Under the pieces are notes generated by a model, which was not told where the DNA came from, did no database searches, and saw only the letters and a list, made by a program, of their open reading frames with translations. Both the position numbers and the translations under genes were made by a program. Source: an uncultured Bacteroidia bacterium (GTDB taxonomy: Bacteria; Bacteroidota; Bacteroidia; Bacteroidales; Prolixibacteraceae). From it: 64,000 nt of DNA. Position 1 is the first letter of the stretch. Every line of letters starts with the position of its first letter. Below are positions 18,851-25,547 of the stretch, in pieces. The stretch covers positions 1 through 64,000 of the forward strand of contig CAIXCY010000022.1 in NCBI GenBank assembly GCA_903918045.1, in the 5' to 3' direction.

Positions 18851-18877
18851 ACTAATTTACCAAAGTAAACAGATGAT

Positions 18878-18893
18878 TGTTCCACGTGAAGCA
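18878..18893. other. parS: parS-like site (one mismatch)
   Basis: TGTTCCACGTGAAGCA matches the general ParB-binding consensus TGTTNCACGTGAAACA at every position except one (G for A). It lies in the intergenic space before the glutaminyl cyclase gene, 6.6 kb from a perfect site at 25532. The pairing supports a centromere-like region, but one mismatch lowers certainty. Confidence 0.6.
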
Positions 18894-18992
18894 ATGTTAA
18901 TAAAACAAGCCTCTTTTGTTAATATCACATGTTTTTTATTTAATTTTCCAAATTATAAATTTGAGCTGCTATGGTTCAATTTAAATTTGATT

Positions 18993-20066
18993 ATGAGAAA
19001 ACTAAGCTTTTTTATTCTTTTGATTCTTTTTTCAACTTTTGATTTAATCAACTGTGCGAACTCTGCAAAAAGAGTGAGACCCCCTGTTACTTCAATAAAA
19101 ATAATATCTAAAAATTCAAATTATACTATAGGAGAACCACTATCTGTTGAAATTAAAACAAAAATTAAAGATGGTACATTCCGAAAAACTGAACTTTTCT
19201 TAGATGGAAAATCTTTAATTTTTAGCGAAAAACCCGAATTTTCATACCAATTTGATACCAAAAATCTTCAGGTTGGAACACACTATCTAAAATCCCTGGC
19301 CACTACAAATGACGGTATTATTGGTGAAAACTTCAATGAGTTTTTACTTAAGTCTGATCTTAATCCTCAAAAATTTAGTTATAAAATAGTCAAAACATAC
19401 CCACATAATACTGACCATTTTACTGAAGGATTAGAAATTAAAAATGGATATTTATATGAAGGTACCGGACAGGAAGGAAGTTCTGCAATTTACAAAACTG
19501 ACTTATCTTCCTGGAAAACAATGAAAGAATTTAAACTTAATGATCAATATTTCGGGGAAGGAATAACCATCTTAAACAATAAATTATACCAGCTTACTTA
19601 TAAAACACAAATTGGTTTTGTTCGCGACTTGAACACTTTTGATCTTATAAAATCATGGTATTTTAAAAATGAACAGGGTTGGGGTCTTACAAATGATGGT
19701 GAATGTTTAATTATGAGCGATGGAACGCAATTTTTAACCTTTATTGATTCACAAAATTTTAATGAGATAAGAAAGATTGAGGTATGTGATCAGTACGGCG
19801 TTGTTAAAAATATAAATGAACTTGAATACATTAACGGTCTTATTTGGGCCAATATATGGACTACTGACAAGGTTGTTGAAATTGATCCTAAAACAGGAAA
19901 AATAATCGCTGAAATTGATTTAGGTGGACTTTTATCATCTGTTATGGTTAACCCAAAAAATTCTGTCGATGTCTTGAATGGAATAGCCTATGATCATGCA
20001 ACTAACAAGATTTATGTAACCGGTAAACTTTGGCCTAAACTATTTGAAATAGAAATAGTTAAATAA
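18993..20066 (+). CDS. Glutaminyl-peptide cyclotransferase (bacterial/plant type) lipoprotein
   Basis: The protein has about 357 residues from the ATG at 18993. A further 40 in-frame codons upstream contain the parS-like site and precede a good signal peptide, so I reject the longer start. The signal ends in a LINC lipobox. After an Ig-like segment (about residues 30-130) comes a five-bladed propeller of the plant/bacterial glutaminyl cyclase family: TYPHNTDHFTEGLEI, YEGTGQEGSSAIYK, YFGEGITILNNKLYQLTYK, ELEYINGLIWANIW and VLNGIAYDHATNKIYVTGKLWPKLFEI. It would convert N-terminal glutamine of exported proteins to pyroglutamate. It is convergent with ruvB, eight bases apart. Confidence 0.9.
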   Translation: MRKLSFFILLILFSTFDLINCANSAKRVRPPVTSIKIISKNSNYTIGEPLSVEIKTKIKDGTFRKTELFLDGKSLIFSEKPEFSYQFDTKNLQVGTHYLKSLATTNDGIIGENFNEFLLKSDLNPQKFSYKIVKTYPHNTDHFTEGLEIKNGYLYEGTGQEGSSAIYKTDLSSWKTMKEFKLNDQYFGEGITILNNKLYQLTYKTQIGFVRDLNTFDLIKSWYFKNEQGWGLTNDGECLIMSDGTQFLTFIDSQNFNEIRKIEVCDQYGVVKNINELEYINGLIWANIWTTDKVVEIDPKTGKIIAEIDLGGLLSSVMVNPKNSVDVLNGIAYDHATNKIYVTGKLWPKLFEIEIVK

Positions 20067-20074
20067 ATTTGTAA

Positions 20075-21100
20075 TCAAAAAAGAGATTGCTCGTTTGACT
20101 TCCTGTTAATCCTTCCTAAATGGCTAAAAGCTAACTCAGTAGCCTCACGCCCTCTGGGAGTACGTTTCAAAAAACCTTCCTTAATTAAAAAAGGTTCATA
20201 AACTTCTTCTATAGTTCCGGAATCTTCTCCCACTGCAGTTGCTATTGTAGTCAATCCAATAGGTCCCCCTCTAAACTTATCAATTATCGTAATTAAAATT
20301 CGATTGTCCATTTCATCAAGACCATGTTTATCAATATTAAGGGCTTCAAGAGCATATCGTGTAATTTTAAGATCAATGATACCATTTCCTTTTACCATTG
20401 CAAAATCACGTACTCTGCGCAATAAGGCATTAACTATTCGGGGTGTTCCCCGGCTCCGTCGTGCAATTTCCTCAGCAGAATCCTGATAAATTTCGATATT
20501 TAGAATTCTTGCAGAACGTTTCACAATATTAGTCAATACCTCTATATCATAGTATTCGAGATGACAGTTAATACCAAACCTGGCCCTTAATGGAGCTGTT
20601 AGTAGACCACTACGTGTTGTGGCCCCTATTAACGTAAAATGATTAAGGTCGAGTTGAATTGAACGTGCACTAGGTCCTTTATCTATCATGATATCTATAC
20701 GGTAATCTTCCATAGCAGAATAAAGATATTCCTCCACAACTGGACTTAATCGATGTATTTCATCAATAAAAAGTACATCATTATTTTCCAGGTTAGTAAG
20801 AACACCAGCAAGATCACCCGGCTTATCAAGTACTGGTCCAGAGGTGAGTTTTAAATTTACACCCAATTCATTTGCAATAATATTCGAAAGTGTTGTCTTC
20901 CCTAACCCTGGAGGTCCATGCAATAAAACATGGTCAAGAGATTCTCCCCTCATTACAGCTGCCTTCACAAATATTTTGAGATTTTCCACTATCTTACTCT
21001 GACCACTAAAATCATTAAACTTAAGAGGTCTAAGTTTGTTGTCAAATTCATTATCTACCTTATCAGCATTTTCTCCGCGTATATCAACTAAATTATCCAT
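20075..21100 (-). CDS. ruvB: Holliday junction branch migration DNA helicase RuvB
   Basis: The protein has about 341 residues from the ATG at 21100 (a start 36 bases upstream is also in frame). RuvB is the hexameric motor of RuvAB that moves Holliday junctions in recombinational repair. Visible features are [12 protein letters not shown] at the N-terminus, Walker [11 protein letters not shown], Walker [10 protein letters not shown], sensor [10 protein letters not shown], the arginine-finger region APLRARFG, and the winged-helix end [22 protein letters not shown]. ruvA and ruvC are not in the window. It is on the minus strand, in line with a leading-strand direction left of the candidate origin. 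Confidence 0.98.
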
Positions 21101-21158
21101 ATTTCTTAAGCACTCATCCTGGTAAAATACTACCATATAAATCTATTATTCAACCAGA

Positions 21159-21545
21159 TTATGGCAATGTATGTAGTATATTTTGAAACTTTATAATATC
21201 AAAGGGCTTCTCTAGAATATCATCCATTCCACCTTTTATACATTTTTCACGGTCATTATTTATTGTGTTTGCTGTAAAGGCTATAATTGGAATATGCCCC
21301 ATGTCAGGTTTACTGGCCTCTAATGCCCTAATTCTTTTTGTTGATTCAAAACCATCCATAATTGGCATCATTATATCCATTAAAATTAAATCAAATTTTT
21401 CATTACTAAACATTTGAACGCCTTCTAAACCATTTACTGCTATGCTAACTTTATAGTTAAACCGTGCCAAACTTATCTTCATAAGCCTTTGGTTTAGCTC
21501 ATTATCTTCGACTAAAAGGATTGATAATCTATCGCACAAATTCAT
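21159..21545 (-). CDS. Stand-alone response-regulator receiver protein
   Basis: The protein has 128 residues and consists of one CheY-like receiver domain with no output domain. The acidic pocket is E13/D14, the phospho-acceptor is D57 in LILMDIMMP, the switch threonine is in IAFTAN, and the invariant lysine is in EKPF. The similarity is closest to receivers of hybrid histidine kinases (the VEDNELNQRL opening), so it may be a phosphorelay shuttle or a detached receiver. No kinase is adjacent. It is the last minus-strand gene before the candidate origin region, 58 bases upstream of ruvB. Confidence 0.9.
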   Translation of the reverse strand: MNLCDRLSILLVEDNELNQRLMKISLARFNYKVSIAVNGLEGVQMFSNEKFDLILMDIMMPIMDGFESTKRIRALEASKPDMGHIPIIAFTANTINNDREKCIKGGMDDILEKPFDIIKFQNILHTLP

Positions 21546-22069
21546 TCTTTAATGAGTTTATAATTTCTTAAATTCACACAAATTTAAATTTAATTAATCA
21601 ATGTGCAATTTATTCGTTTTAGATTTACTTATTACTAGTATTATTATTTTTTAATAAGAATTTAAATCTATTATTATTTTAATAGGGTGTTGATTTAGTT
21701 TATTTTTTTGATATTTTTTTTTTGGTTTTTTGATTTTCGCTGTTTCTTAACTTATATTTATTCAACTATAAACAGTATAAATTGTTCTTTTGTTGCTTTT
21801 TAATTTAATATTAACTTGTTGTTGATATCCATATACTTCTTTTTTTATGATTTTCTTTTTTGGTATTTTTGGTATTTTTAAAGTGTATTTTTTTTAAAAG
21901 TTTTTTAAAAATTTGTCTTTGATTTTATTTTTTATTTTTTAAGATGAGAGCGTGTATTTTAGTTATAATTTTTTTTTAGCATTTAGTTATCGTGTTTTGT
22001 TCATATCATGTTTACTGATTTTTTATAAATATTTTTTATAAATTTTAATTGTATTTTTAATTTTATAGT
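21546..22069. other. Gene-free, T-rich strand-switch region: candidate replication origin
   Basis: These 524 bases hold no credible gene. In 21661-22020 I count 212 T, 82 A, 43 G and 23 C (18% GC), whereas 21541-21600 has 28 T, 23 A, 2 G and 7 C. The strand bias therefore flips at about 21.6 kb. Gene direction flips here too: mostly minus to the left and mostly plus to the right. Long T tracts could form an easily melted region. No TTATCCACA-type DnaA box cluster is visible, so the call rests on asymmetry and on the two nearby parS sites. Confidence 0.5.
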
Positions 22070-22507
22070 ATGATAGTCATAGGAATTGCTGGAGACCACG
22101 CTGGATTTCATTTAAAAAGCATCGTTTTTGATCATTTGAAAGAAAAAGGATATCAAGTTATTGATTTTGGTTGTAATTCGGATCTTAGTTGTGATTATAC
22201 TGAATTTGCACATTTACTTGGCAAAGCTATTGATAATAAACTGATTGATTTTGGTTTTGTATTTTGTGGCAGTGGTAATGGTATTAATATTACTGTTAAT
22301 AAACATCAGATGGTTCGTTCTGCACTATGTTGGAGTTCTGAAATTGCATCGTTATCAAGGCATCATAATAATGCAAATGTATGTTCGTTACCAGCACGTT
22401 TTGTGACTTCTGATGTAGCTATAAATATCGTAGATACATTTTTATTCGAGCCATTTGATGGAGGTCGGCATCTTCAAAGAGTTCTAAATATTCCAATTGT
22501 AATTTAA
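22070..22507 (+). CDS. rpiB: Ribose-5-phosphate isomerase B
   Basis: The protein has 145 residues. It interconverts ribose-5-phosphate and ribulose-5-phosphate in the pentose phosphate pathway. The family signatures are all present: IGIAGDHAGFHLK with the catalytic-site Asp and His, the base C66 in FVFCGSGNGINITVNK, and the substrate loop RSALCW...ARHHN-type segment (here SRHHNNANVCSLPARFV). It has the RpiB/LacA/LacB fold and the RpiB-type Cys. It is the first plus-strand gene to the right of the candidate origin, with strongly A/T-ending codons. Untranslated, AT-rich DNA flanks it on both sides, so it is likely a single-gene transcript. Confidence 0.95.
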   Translation: MIVIGIAGDHAGFHLKSIVFDHLKEKGYQVIDFGCNSDLSCDYTEFAHLLGKAIDNKLIDFGFVFCGSGNGINITVNKHQMVRSALCWSSEIASLSRHHNNANVCSLPARFVTSDVAINIVDTFLFEPFDGGRHLQRVLNIPIVI

Positions 22508-22813
22508 ATCTCTTATATTTATATATTCAGTATTTTTAAGAAATTTTTTCCTTGTCACATCTTTTTTAATAAGATAATTCTTGAATCTTGGATTTTTTAA
22601 TTACCATATTTTTACTTATTATGTTTATAATCTTGTTTTTAATTTTTGAACTTATCATAATAAATTTTTTTATTATGATTTAAAATTTTTTTTATCATTT
22701 TAAAAAATTAGAAATATTTTAGTGCTATTAACTATTTTTTGTTTTACTAGTTTGTGTATTTTTATTTTTTTAGTGTGCGGTATGTTTGTCATCCTTAATT
22801 TTAATAACTTTTT
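22508..22813. other. AT-rich intergenic stretch, no gene seen
   Basis: About 306 bases with long T tracts on the plus strand. There is no frame of useful length, no clear hairpin terminator and no DnaA box. It continues the T-over-A bias that begins at about 21.6 kb. Confidence 0.6.
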
Positions 22814-23224: not shown

Positions 23225-23664
23225 TGGCTATATTTTTCAATACAGAGGATACTGCTAAACCTAAAATCTCATTTATATTACTTAAACGTTGGCTCAATAC
23301 TATTTTAAGACAGTATGATAAAAATGCCGGGGAAATAAACTTTATTTTTTGCAGTGATAATTATTTATTGGAAATTAATAATAAATTTTTAAAGCATGAT
23401 TATTTTACTGATATTATCACTTTTGATTATTGTGAGGGTTTAAAAGTTTCAGGTGATATTTATATTAGTCTTGATAGGGTTAAAGATAATTCCGAATTGT
23501 TTGGGTATTCATTTTTAGATGAACTCTTAAGGGTGATTGTTCATGGTCTGCTGCATTTATTAGGATATAAGGACAAGGCCGATGATGAAATAATTTTAAT
23601 GCGTAAGTTAGAGGATAAATTTGTGGATTTGTTTAAGAATATGAAAAATGGATATATTAAATGA
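23224..23664 (+). CDS. ybeY: Endoribonuclease YbeY (rRNA maturation factor)
   Basis: The protein has 146 residues. YbeY is a metal-dependent RNase needed for 16S rRNA 3' end maturation and ribosome quality control. The DIITFDY and SGDIYIS segments lead to the metal motif HGLLHLLGYKD. In most bacteria this motif is HGxLHLxGYDH with three histidines. Here H107 and H111 are present, but the third ligand position (117) is Asp. Several Bacteroidota YbeY proteins, as I recall, share this change, so it is probably lineage-typical and still able to bind metal. The gene overlaps its upstream neighbour by one base and mnmG by 17 bases. Confidence 0.92.
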   Translation: MAIFFNTEDTAKPKISFILLKRWLNTILRQYDKNAGEINFIFCSDNYLLEINNKFLKHDYFTDIITFDYCEGLKVSGDIYISLDRVKDNSELFGYSFLDELLRVIVHGLLHLLGYKDKADDEIILMRKLEDKFVDLFKNMKNGYIK

Positions 23665-25531
23665 ATATGATATAATTGTTGTCGGGGGTGGACATGCTGG
23701 TTGTGAGGCGGCTGTCGCAGCAGCTAAGCTCGGTTCAAAAGTTTTATTGATAACGATGGATTTGTCACGCATGGCTCAGATGAGTTGTAATCCTGCAGTT
23801 GGTGGAATTGCTAAAGGTCAACTTGTTAGGGAAATTGATGCTTTAGGTGGTCAAATGGGAATAGTTACTGATTTATCTTCTATTCAATTCAGGATGTTAA
23901 ACCTCTCCAAAGGACCGGCTATGTGGAGTCCAAGGGCCCAATGTGATAAGAACGTATTCTCAGCTACTTGGAAAACACTTTTAGAAGGGCAAGCTGACCT
24001 GGATTTTTGGCAAGGAACCGTTTTAAATTTAATTATTGAAGATAAGAAAGTAGTTGGTGTAGTTACGGATATTGGTGTAGGTTTTCGAGGCAGATGTGTT
24101 ATTTTGACAAGTGGAACTTTTCTTAATGGATTAATGCATTTTGGATCATCTCAAATTTCGGGCGGTAGAATTTCAGAACCTTCGTCCAATGGAATTACTG
24201 AACAACTTATTTCTGTTGGTTTTATAGCGGGACGCATGAAAACTGGTACTCCTGTTAGAATTGATAAGCGGACTATAGACTTTTCCAAACTTATTCGTCA
24301 AGATGGTGAGGATAGTATAATTCAGTTTAGTTATACCCCTAATATTAATAATGTTTTACCTAAGTTACCATGTTATATCACTTATACTAATGAAAAGGTA
24401 CACAGAATTATTGAATCTGGTTTTAAGGAAAGTCCTTTATTTGACGGCACTATTAAAGGATTAGGTCCCAGATATTGTCCAAGTATAGAAACTAAGCTAA
24501 TTACTTTTACTGATAAAGATAGACACCAGCTTTTTTTGGAACCAGAAGGTGTTGATTCCCTTGAGTATTATTTAAATGGTTTTTCATCTTCTCTTAGTTG
24601 GAGGGTGCAATATGATGCTATGCATTGTATCCCTGGTTTAGAATATTCAAAAATATTTAAACCTGGTTATGCTATAGAATATGACTATTTTTTACCTACA
24701 CAGTTGACTCATACACTCGAAACAAAACTTATTGAAAACTTATTTTTTGCTGGTCAAATTAATGGAACGACTGGTTATGAAGAAGCTGGTTCGCAAGGTA
24801 TAATTGCTGGTATTAATGCTCATTTAAAGGTTGGAGGGGGTAATCCTTTTATTTTATCCCGAAGTGAAGCGTACATTGGAGTTTTGATCGATGATCTCGT
24901 TACCAAAGGTGTTGATGAACCATATAGAATGTTTACATCTAGAGCTGAATATCGTTTACTATTGCGTCAGGATAATGCTGATGAGCGTTTGACACCGTTA
25001 GGATTTAAACTTGGTTTAGCCGGAATGGAAAGGTATAATCGTTTAAGAATTAAGCTCGCTTTTAAGGAAGTTCTAGTAACATTCTGCAGAAGGTTTAGTG
25101 TCTCACCTGATTCTATTAACAATTTATTAGTTTTAAAAGAGACATCGCGTCTTAAGCAAAATGTAAAACTGGATACTTTGATCAGAAGGCCTCAGTTGTC
25201 AATATTTGATTTTCTCGGGTATATTCCTAAATTAGAGGATATTTATCAAAGTATAGAATTATCTTTGAGGCAGGAAGTATTTCAGGCGGCAGAGATTTTA
25301 CTTAAATATTCTGGCTATATTGATAGGGAATCAGTTGTAGCTAGTAAATTGACCAGATTAGAAGATCTTCTAATTAATGATAAATTTAATTACAATGGAA
25401 TAGATTCTCTATCTACTGAGGCACGACAGAAATTGGAAAAGGTTCAACCATTAACAATTGGTCAAGCATCGCGTATACCGGGGGTATCTCCTAGTGACAT
25501 CAATGTTCTCTTAGTTTTAATGGGAAGGTGA
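23648..25531 (+). CDS. mnmG: tRNA uridine-5-carboxymethylaminomethyl modification enzyme MnmG
   Basis: The protein has 627 residues, the standard length. With MnmE it installs the cmnm5 group on U34 of several tRNAs, using FAD, NADH and methylene-tetrahydrofolate. The N-terminal FAD fold shows VVGGGHAGCEAA. The MDLSRMAQMSCNPAVGG and GGRISEPSSNGITEQL segments are diagnostic, and the C-terminal helical MnmE-binding region ends PGVSPSDINVLLVLMG. It starts inside the end of ybeY. In many bacteria mnmG (gidA) is close to oriC, and here a parS palindrome begins one base after its stop codon. mnmE is not in the window. Confidence 0.98.
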   Translation: MDILNEYDIIVVGGGHAGCEAAVAAAKLGSKVLLITMDLSRMAQMSCNPAVGGIAKGQLVREIDALGGQMGIVTDLSSIQFRMLNLSKGPAMWSPRAQCDKNVFSATWKTLLEGQADLDFWQGTVLNLIIEDKKVVGVVTDIGVGFRGRCVILTSGTFLNGLMHFGSSQISGGRISEPSSNGITEQLISVGFIAGRMKTGTPVRIDKRTIDFSKLIRQDGEDSIIQFSYTPNINNVLPKLPCYITYTNEKVHRIIESGFKESPLFDGTIKGLGPRYCPSIETKLITFTDKDRHQLFLEPEGVDSLEYYLNGFSSSLSWRVQYDAMHCIPGLEYSKIFKPGYAIEYDYFLPTQLTHTLETKLIENLFFAGQINGTTGYEEAGSQGIIAGINAHLKVGGGNPFILSRSEAYIGVLIDDLVTKGVDEPYRMFTSRAEYRLLLRQDNADERLTPLGFKLGLAGMERYNRLRIKLAFKEVLVTFCRRFSVSPDSINNLLVLKETSRLKQNVKLDTLIRRPQLSIFDFLGYIPKLEDIYQSIELSLRQEVFQAAEILLKYSGYIDRESVVASKLTRLEDLLINDKFNYNGIDSLSTEARQKLEKVQPLTIGQASRIPGVSPSDINVLLVLMGR

Positions 25532-25547
25532 TGTTCCACGTGGAACA
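25532..25547. other. parS: parS centromere site (perfect palindrome)
   Basis: TGTTCCACGTGGAACA is a perfect 16-base palindrome (18 bases with the flanking A and T). It fits the widely conserved ParB-binding parS consensus, and it lies directly after the mnmG stop and before apt. ParB would load here, spread and guide origin segregation. A second, one-mismatch copy lies at 18878. Confidence 0.88.

Follow-up and report, generated by a model that had tools for sequence, protein, structure and literature searches.

A probable chromosomal replication origin with an altered DnaA-box-like element beside rpiB in an uncultured member of the Prolixibacteraceae

Our analysis of a 64,000-nucleotide stretch of DNA from an uncultured Prolixibacteraceae bacterium (the window) indicates that the junction between a response-regulator gene and rpiB is very probably the chromosomal replication origin (oriC). 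The junction is an AT-rich intergenic stretch at a negative-to-positive switch of GC skew, and it carries a conserved element, common to many related bacteria, whose sequence suggests a modified site at which DnaA docks and opens the DNA. From the conserved architecture of this element and from covariation with the initiator, we infer an unwinding mechanism that would use a changed DnaA box. The coordinates of all features are collected in Table 1.

Table 1. Features of the proposed origin and its surroundings, in window coordinates.
Feature	Position	Strand	Basis
parS-type site, TGTTCCACGTGAAGCA, one mismatch	18878-18893	none	motif search
ruvB	20075-21136	-	PF05496, 3.4e-78
Stand-alone response-regulator receiver protein	21159-21545	-	PF00072, 1.3e-25
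Proposed oriC, the AT-rich junction between the response-regulator gene (-) and rpiB (+)	21546-22069	none	16.4% GC; gene-free; skew changepoint; profile match 21551-22068, circular for the window itself
Likely -7 promoter element TAAATTTG of the response-regulator gene, apart from the core	21579-21586	-	conserved position in genus
DnaA-trio-like repeat, five triplets, T every 3 nt (3'->5': TAA TTT TAT TAT TAT)	21669-21683	+	36-core alignment
G-rich spacer AGGG between triplets and boxes (consensus AGnC)	21684-21687	none	core alignment
Box 1, 5'-AAATCAACA, consensus TTATNAACA	21688-21696	-	GTT in 36/36 cores, the cores having been picked with the word in view
Box 2, tandem, weaker, 5'-AAATAAACT	21697-21705	-	core alignment
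Further TATNAACA box, TATAAACA	21767-21774	+	word search
Further TATNAACA box, TATCAACA	21820-21827	-	word search
Further TATNAACA box, TATGAACA	21998-22005	-	word search
rpiB	22070-22507	+	PF02502, 1.6e-48
mnmG (gidA)	23648-25531	+	PF01134, 1.3e-155
parS site directly 3' of mnmG, TGTTCCACGTGGAACA	25532-25547	none	motif search

Across the whole junction, the window's list of open reading frames holds none of at least 60 aa. An earlier note on this DNA had called it gene-free with 18% GC, which agrees with the 18.3% counted in 21661-22020, and the plus-strand T/A and G/C counts given there are exact (28/23 and 2/7 in 21541-21600; 212/82 and 43/23 in 21661-22020). Left of the junction, the genes for the receiver protein and ruvB are both on the minus strand; right of it, rpiB, the gene for a HATPase_c_2 protein, ybeY, mnmG, a phosphoribosyltransferase gene and uvrC are all on the plus strand. 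The change of gene direction that had been described, from mostly minus at 12.8-21.5 kb to all plus at 22.1-27.9 kb, stands, with a plus-strand glutamine cyclotransferase gene at 18873-20066 as the exception on the left. The placing of mnmG next to the junction has to be corrected, since it is the fourth gene rightward, preceded by rpiB, the HATPase_c_2 gene and ybeY. Two parS-type sites are indeed found within 4 kb on either side.

The same note had put the change in strand bias at about 21.6 kb, and a two-segment maximum-likelihood fit in 10-base steps finds a GC-skew changepoint, stronger than chance would give, at 21,600 (interval 21,380-22,060). Cumulative GC skew has its minimum at 21,599, and a base-by-base fit places the changepoint at 21,634 (log-likelihood gain 104.5; interval 21,429-21,944). 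Single kilobases deviate on both sides, being positive at 5-9 kb and 19-20 kb on the left and negative at 53-54 and 59-60 kb on the right; farther along the window's contig (C22; 88,672 bp), skew at 64-84 kb is positive or near zero. The junction is also a divergent gene pair, and it is conceivable that the skew arises only from divergent transcription and that the conserved element acts as a promoter or as a regulatory site for the operon downstream (response regulator-ruvB here, nadA-response regulator-ruvB in relatives). When GC3 skew on the plus strand is separated by gene strand, however, using 55 of 61 ORFs after dropping six that overlap, it changes from -0.150 on the left (n=4) to +0.196 on the right (n=28) in plus genes, and from -0.283 (n=14) to +0.080 (n=9) in minus genes. 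Because the sign changes in genes of both orientations, the direction of transcription alone cannot produce the switch.

The genome that holds the window is a draft of 281 contigs whose order is not derivable, and chromosome-wide skew was therefore sampled in five closed genomes of the same family, in 20-kb pieces (20 from G043 and 10 each from G046, G058, G054 and G028). In all five, the skew goes from negative to positive across mnmG, as resolved to about 25-450 kb, which again argues against an effect of local transcription. The skew has the expected sign in 55 of the 60 pieces, the side of the terminus being taken from the same data; the pieces of unexpected sign lie at 1.9 Mb (+0.003) and 3.3 Mb (-0.025) in G043, at 1.16 Mb (+0.074) in G046, at 2.70 Mb (+0.169) in G058 and at 3.25 Mb (+0.088) in G028.

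In bacteria, dnaA is often linked to the origin, and one may ask whether replication starts at dnaA here as well. In the five closed relatives, however, dnaA is 1.1-2.1 Mb away from mnmG, the site of the skew switch, and the full dnaA of the window's own genome is on another contig, C88. An origin far from dnaA is common in Bacteroidetes, according to the excerpted text of PMC4755523, and we regard an origin at dnaA as barely credible. Where such outcomes could have appeared, that is, in the five closed relatives, neither a distant skew minimum nor a dnaA-linked origin was found, which supports the origin reading of the earlier note. Outside the family, skew is positive from the core of the element onward in one closed genome (G293) of family f123, with mnmG and two parS sites about 19 kb off, and weak or unclear at the core in two of the three closed f123 genomes sampled (G339 and G354). 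In G221, another member of the Bacteroidales, skew is weak and mnmG lies about 20 kb from the core.

How is the junction arranged in relatives? In the genus of the window, ruvB(-) and the response regulator(-) precede the junction, which is followed by rpiB(+) and, farther on, ybeY(+) and mnmG(+). Four loci of other families are inverted, with rpiB(-), junction, nadA(+), response regulator(+) and ruvB(+) ... mnmG(+), and there the skew goes positive at or near the junction (L013, Bacteroidales; L018, Breznakibacter; L019, Carboxylicivirga; L045, Marinilabiliaceae); the remaining eight of the 12 other-family loci show mixed or weak local skew. The stand-alone receiver protein is kept with ruvB beside the origin in most family loci examined, and it might link signalling to initiation; in G028 and G058, none was found beside ruvB. 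The assemblies of two genus members break within the origin junction (L139 and L140 in G011; L144 and L197 in G017), perhaps owing to low complexity, and breaks of this kind are helpful when origins are sought in draft genomes.

In 22 family loci, cut around the junction and fitted with only lower-to-higher skew changes permitted, the changepoint lies a median of 60 bp from the conserved element, and the element falls within the 3-log-unit changepoint interval in all 22. The poor fits among them are Tangfeifania, which is uninformative (gain 1.0), and G043 and G046, which are more than 1 kb off (-1087 and +1294). These results also bear on whether the origin is nearby but elsewhere, for example in the stretch between mnmG and parS or in the gap 22508-22813, which is likewise AT-rich and gene-free and has one TATNAACA inside. 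That gap is beyond both changepoint intervals of the window, the conserved element sits at 21,669-21,705, and other genera of the family carry different plus genes 3' of the junction; we consider such a displaced origin very unlikely, a shade more so than the promoter reading, and favor the junction itself.

In the element, a short spacer separates triplet repeats from two TATNAACA-like boxes in tandem. In the alignment of 36 cores, the spacer has the consensus AGnC, box 1 reads TGTTNATA, which on the minus strand is TATNAACA, and a weaker box 2 stands in tandem with it. All cores were anchored on the box 1 word, two of them (G058 and Tangfeifania) being placed by eye, so that the invariance of box 1 is partly by choice. 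The triplet period played no part in the anchoring, and a T recurs every 3 nt in 20-23 of the 23 cores outside the genus and in 12-13 of the 13 within it, which supports the triplet reading; roughly half of the cores outside the genus have a TAG as the box-proximal triplet.

We combined 10 genus junctions into a profile and searched it at full sensitivity against 12 further loci of the family, 12 from other families and 59 pieces of background sequence. At E<=10 it matched the junction in 11 of the 12 family loci, most weakly in G033 and G046 (E 0.17 each) and G058 (E 6), and in six of the 12 loci of other families; it missed the Tangfeifania junction, gave a single off-junction match (JC049, E 3.6) and matched none of the 59 20-kb background pieces (1.18 Mb). 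When 145 loci were scanned along with the window, the profile matched 15 of them at E<=1 and also the window itself; reversed copies of the same sequences gave no match at that threshold.

Could this conserved element nonetheless serve transcription? In 11 of the 12 other-family loci examined, it stands immediately 5' of nadA, as a promoter might. It remains constant, however, while the gene downstream of it varies between nadA, the response regulator and ruvB, and in the genus a separate promoter-like element, TAAATTTG, lies about 85 bp nearer the gene. Of 12 genus sequences, 11 have this separate element at -32 to -43 and the remaining one has TAGTTTTG; the name -7 element assumes that TAnnTTTG is a promoter motif. 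The presumed -33/-7 promoter pair of Bacteroidota is absent from the 355 bp upstream of the response regulator, where only the -7-like element was seen. Taken with the skew of genes on both strands, these observations make a promoter or regulatory site improbable as the explanation of the junction, and we retain the origin reading.

The boxes also emerge from word counts made without assuming a DnaA box. In 12 genus junctions, CTATNAAC occurs 15 times against 1.1 expected, alongside GTTCATA and AACAGNTA, and TATNAACA occurs 26 times against 5.3; among 12 further junctions, the top word is ATNAACAG (13 against 0.8), and TATNAACA occurs 20 times against 4.8. Because the sequences within each set are related, these figures overstate independence. 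Junctions hold 47 copies of TATNAACA in 15.6 kb, compared with a mean of 0.26 per 500 bp in matched AT-rich control stretches, none of which (0 of 149) holds at least three; the window's junction holds three. The word is absent from six family junctions (G054, G065, G023, G048, G058 and G028). Canonical TTATNCACA boxes number zero in the window's junction and one across 11 genus junctions, so that the canonical cluster by which an oriC is recognized is not seen, and the G046 junction also holds a perfect TTATCCACA. The earlier note had remarked that no DnaA-box cluster was visible, an absence probably explained by the C-to-A change that the box has at position 6 relative to TTATCCACA; neither TTATNCACA nor a relaxed form (TTWTNCACA) is enriched at the junction, and both forms were discarded as the junction signal.

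To gauge how far the element extends, we consider two models, R1 (23 cores, built without the genus) and R2 (35 cores, sequence only). At E<=0.001 under stricter filters, R2 gave 48 matches in 47 of 149 Bacteroidales genomes, our own included (46 of 148 others), some possibly in genomes whose cores built R2, and no match in the other 102. Across 148 genomes of the phylum, the same search matched six besides our own, all from f123, a family of the same class and a different order, and none of the remaining 141; since no f123 genome was in the R2 building set, the f123 matches are an independent test. The match is the only one at E<=0.001 in 46 of the 47 genomes, among them our own, which is part of R2. 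In 36 loci (30 Bacteroidales, including our own, and six f123), nadA or rpiB is found within about 1.5 kb of the element in 33, with nadA in 22; rpiB is beside the element in all six f123 loci, and neither gene is near it at L209, L220 and L229.

With R1, the junction outranks every other site of the genome in 10 of the 15 genus genomes. In our own genome it ranks third, tied (12.9 bits, E 0.62); it is not top in G014, and it is not among the matches listed for G010, G011 and G012, where contigs end close to mnmG. A better R1 match in our own genome (C82:108634) was rejected as an origin, for it lies within an ORF and has no lasting negative-to-positive switch, and a second R1 match in G017 turned out to be the other side of the same junction and not a separate site. 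Apart from these, G028 carries a dispersed 63-bp sequence, at C1:725461-725523 and a dozen or so places, that matches the origin model weakly and with repeated identical scores.

If the box has changed, has the initiator changed with it? The DnaA of our genome has 476 aa, and its recognition helix reads GGKDHATVLH, compared with GGRDHTTVIH in B. subtilis (8btg). All nine further DnaA read from the family (six) and from f123 (three) have DHATVLHAC. DHA is thus present in 10 of 10 DnaA read from lineages with the element, and DHS or DHT in 30 of 30 others; the 30 come from a sample of 41 phylum genomes, of which the 30 best-scoring loci, our own and three from f123 were read and seven lay outside the reading, and ranking by best score favors non-DHA proteins. 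None of the 30 DHS or DHT genomes is among the phylum genomes matched by R2. The correspondence holds by lineage and not by genome: within f123, G257 has the element, and G261 and G265 are without it at E<=0.001. We take the variable position to be that of E. coli Thr435 and to contact the box. We tentatively suggest, while holding the idea with some doubt, that initiator and site may have switched specificity together in Bacteroidales and at least f123, the helix from DHS or DHT to DHA and the box from TTATNCACA to TTATNAACA, within a conserved triplet opening unit kept beside rpiB and nadA (or nadA's replacements) through inversions. If so, standard DnaA-box searches would miss these origins.

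Tandem TTATCCACA-TTATNCACA pairs were also considered as proof of box covariation and set aside as too few: they occur in three of 24 genomes, two of family f121, whose members read have DHT or DHS, and one of f123 (G265, DHA), where the pair is without a skew switch. The two f121 pairs (L318 in G253, L319 in G269) coincide with a small local change of skew sign and may be the origins of those genomes. A second Bac_DnaA_C match in our genome (G000:C109:262-636, L002) is a 124-aa ORF matching only the C-terminal DNA-binding domain of DnaA; this length falls short of a whole DnaA, and the ORF was not accepted as an initiator.

Segregation genes and sites are in keeping with an origin region. In 14 of the 16 genomes searched, mnmG is followed within about 20 bp on its 3' side by a parS-type site; of the exceptions, G028 has a one-mismatch site about 2.6 kb 3' of mnmG, and the nearest site in G058 is about 49 kb away. 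With one HTH_ParB match in our own genome, on contig C82, both marks of a ParABS centre are present: the genome has a ParB gene, and a parS palindrome stands close to the origin. Away from the window, near the start of a contig (G000:C150:141-156), there is another parS-like site, CGTTTCACGTGGAACA.

We propose the following model for initiation. DnaA would bind the TATNAACA boxes, and the two tandem boxes at 21688-21705 would guide it onto the triplet-repeat strand at 21669-21683. From there, DnaA may unwind the AT-rich DNA in the manner of the basal unwinding system (BUS) of B. subtilis, and two forks would depart in opposite directions from the opened duplex. ParB would load at the two parS sites, one 2.7 kb leftward and the other 3.5 kb rightward, and the new origins would be segregated. 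The box change at position 6 relative to TTATCCACA is possibly matched by the change of the recognition helix from DHT or DHS to DHA.

The likeness to known unwinding systems lies in the order of parts. The BUS comprises DnaA boxes and DnaA-trios (PMC8287927), with triplets of B. subtilis and H. pylori given in PMC10316083, and the rules in the excerpted text of PMC8287927 call for a box with at most two mismatches to TTATCCACA or a species-specific box, and for at least three 3'-NAN-5' triplets within 16 bp. The element shares tandem boxes, a short spacer and triplet repeats in this order, as far as its sequence tells. It differs in the C-to-A change at position 6 of its box (TTATNAACA) and in its triplets, where T is invariant and the middle base varies, being mostly A or G in non-genus cores and often T in those of the genus. 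The triplets and boxes of the window match the published consensus poorly, and its copy is a degenerate example of the element. Its box 1 has three mismatches to TTATCCACA and two to TTATNAACA; TAT TAT TAT, 10 bp from box 1, formally fits the triplet rule, but that rule is lax in AT-rich DNA. Read 3'->5', four of the five triplets have a middle A.

The placement of the proposed origin has precedents. Origins linked to mnmG were predicted by Ori-Finder in two Flavobacteriaceae (PMC11278836, in the excerpted parts of which a figure legend labels two regions opposite to the text, and PMC12843772), and the origin of Prevotella intermedia is described, among these two papers and PMC4755523, as lying away from dnaA at a GC-skew transition. 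Such mnmG-linked, dnaA-distant origins share the placement of the window's site; those published for Bacteroidota, in the excerpts at hand, are Ori-Finder predictions, whereas here a conserved element with an altered box adjoins rpiB and nadA or the response regulator. In gut bacteria including Bacteroides caecimuris, origins were set from parS and skew with support from coverage (PMC10197239). As here, parS stands beside the skew switch in those systems and the origin is not systematically tied to dnaA; they differ in that the excerpted text reports no conserved oriC sequence. The mnmG (gidA) gene also adjoins the origin in E. coli (PMC4446571, in part), unlike which the window's site has other neighbours and is without a TTATNCACA cluster. 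Excerpts of two further papers give other DnaA-box variants (PMC5043019) and a Bacteroidota endosymbiont without dnaA or DnaA boxes (PMC2768785). The location of the origin is already known in kind; in the literature searched, which was that of PMC, with most subscription journals and DoriC outside it and papers in part as excerpts, we found no description of the conserved element, of the TTATNAACA box or of a nadA- or rpiB-linked oriC element in Bacteroidota.

What is the relevance of such an element? The phylum is common in gut and sediment, and dnaA is the wrong landmark for its origins there. The 85-position model offers a sequence handle for finding origins directly in draft genomes and MAGs, and growth-rate estimates based on coverage depend on the correct origin. 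If the covariation of DnaA and its box is true, these bacteria would provide a clear example from nature of a joint change of specificity in an initiator and the site that it recognizes.
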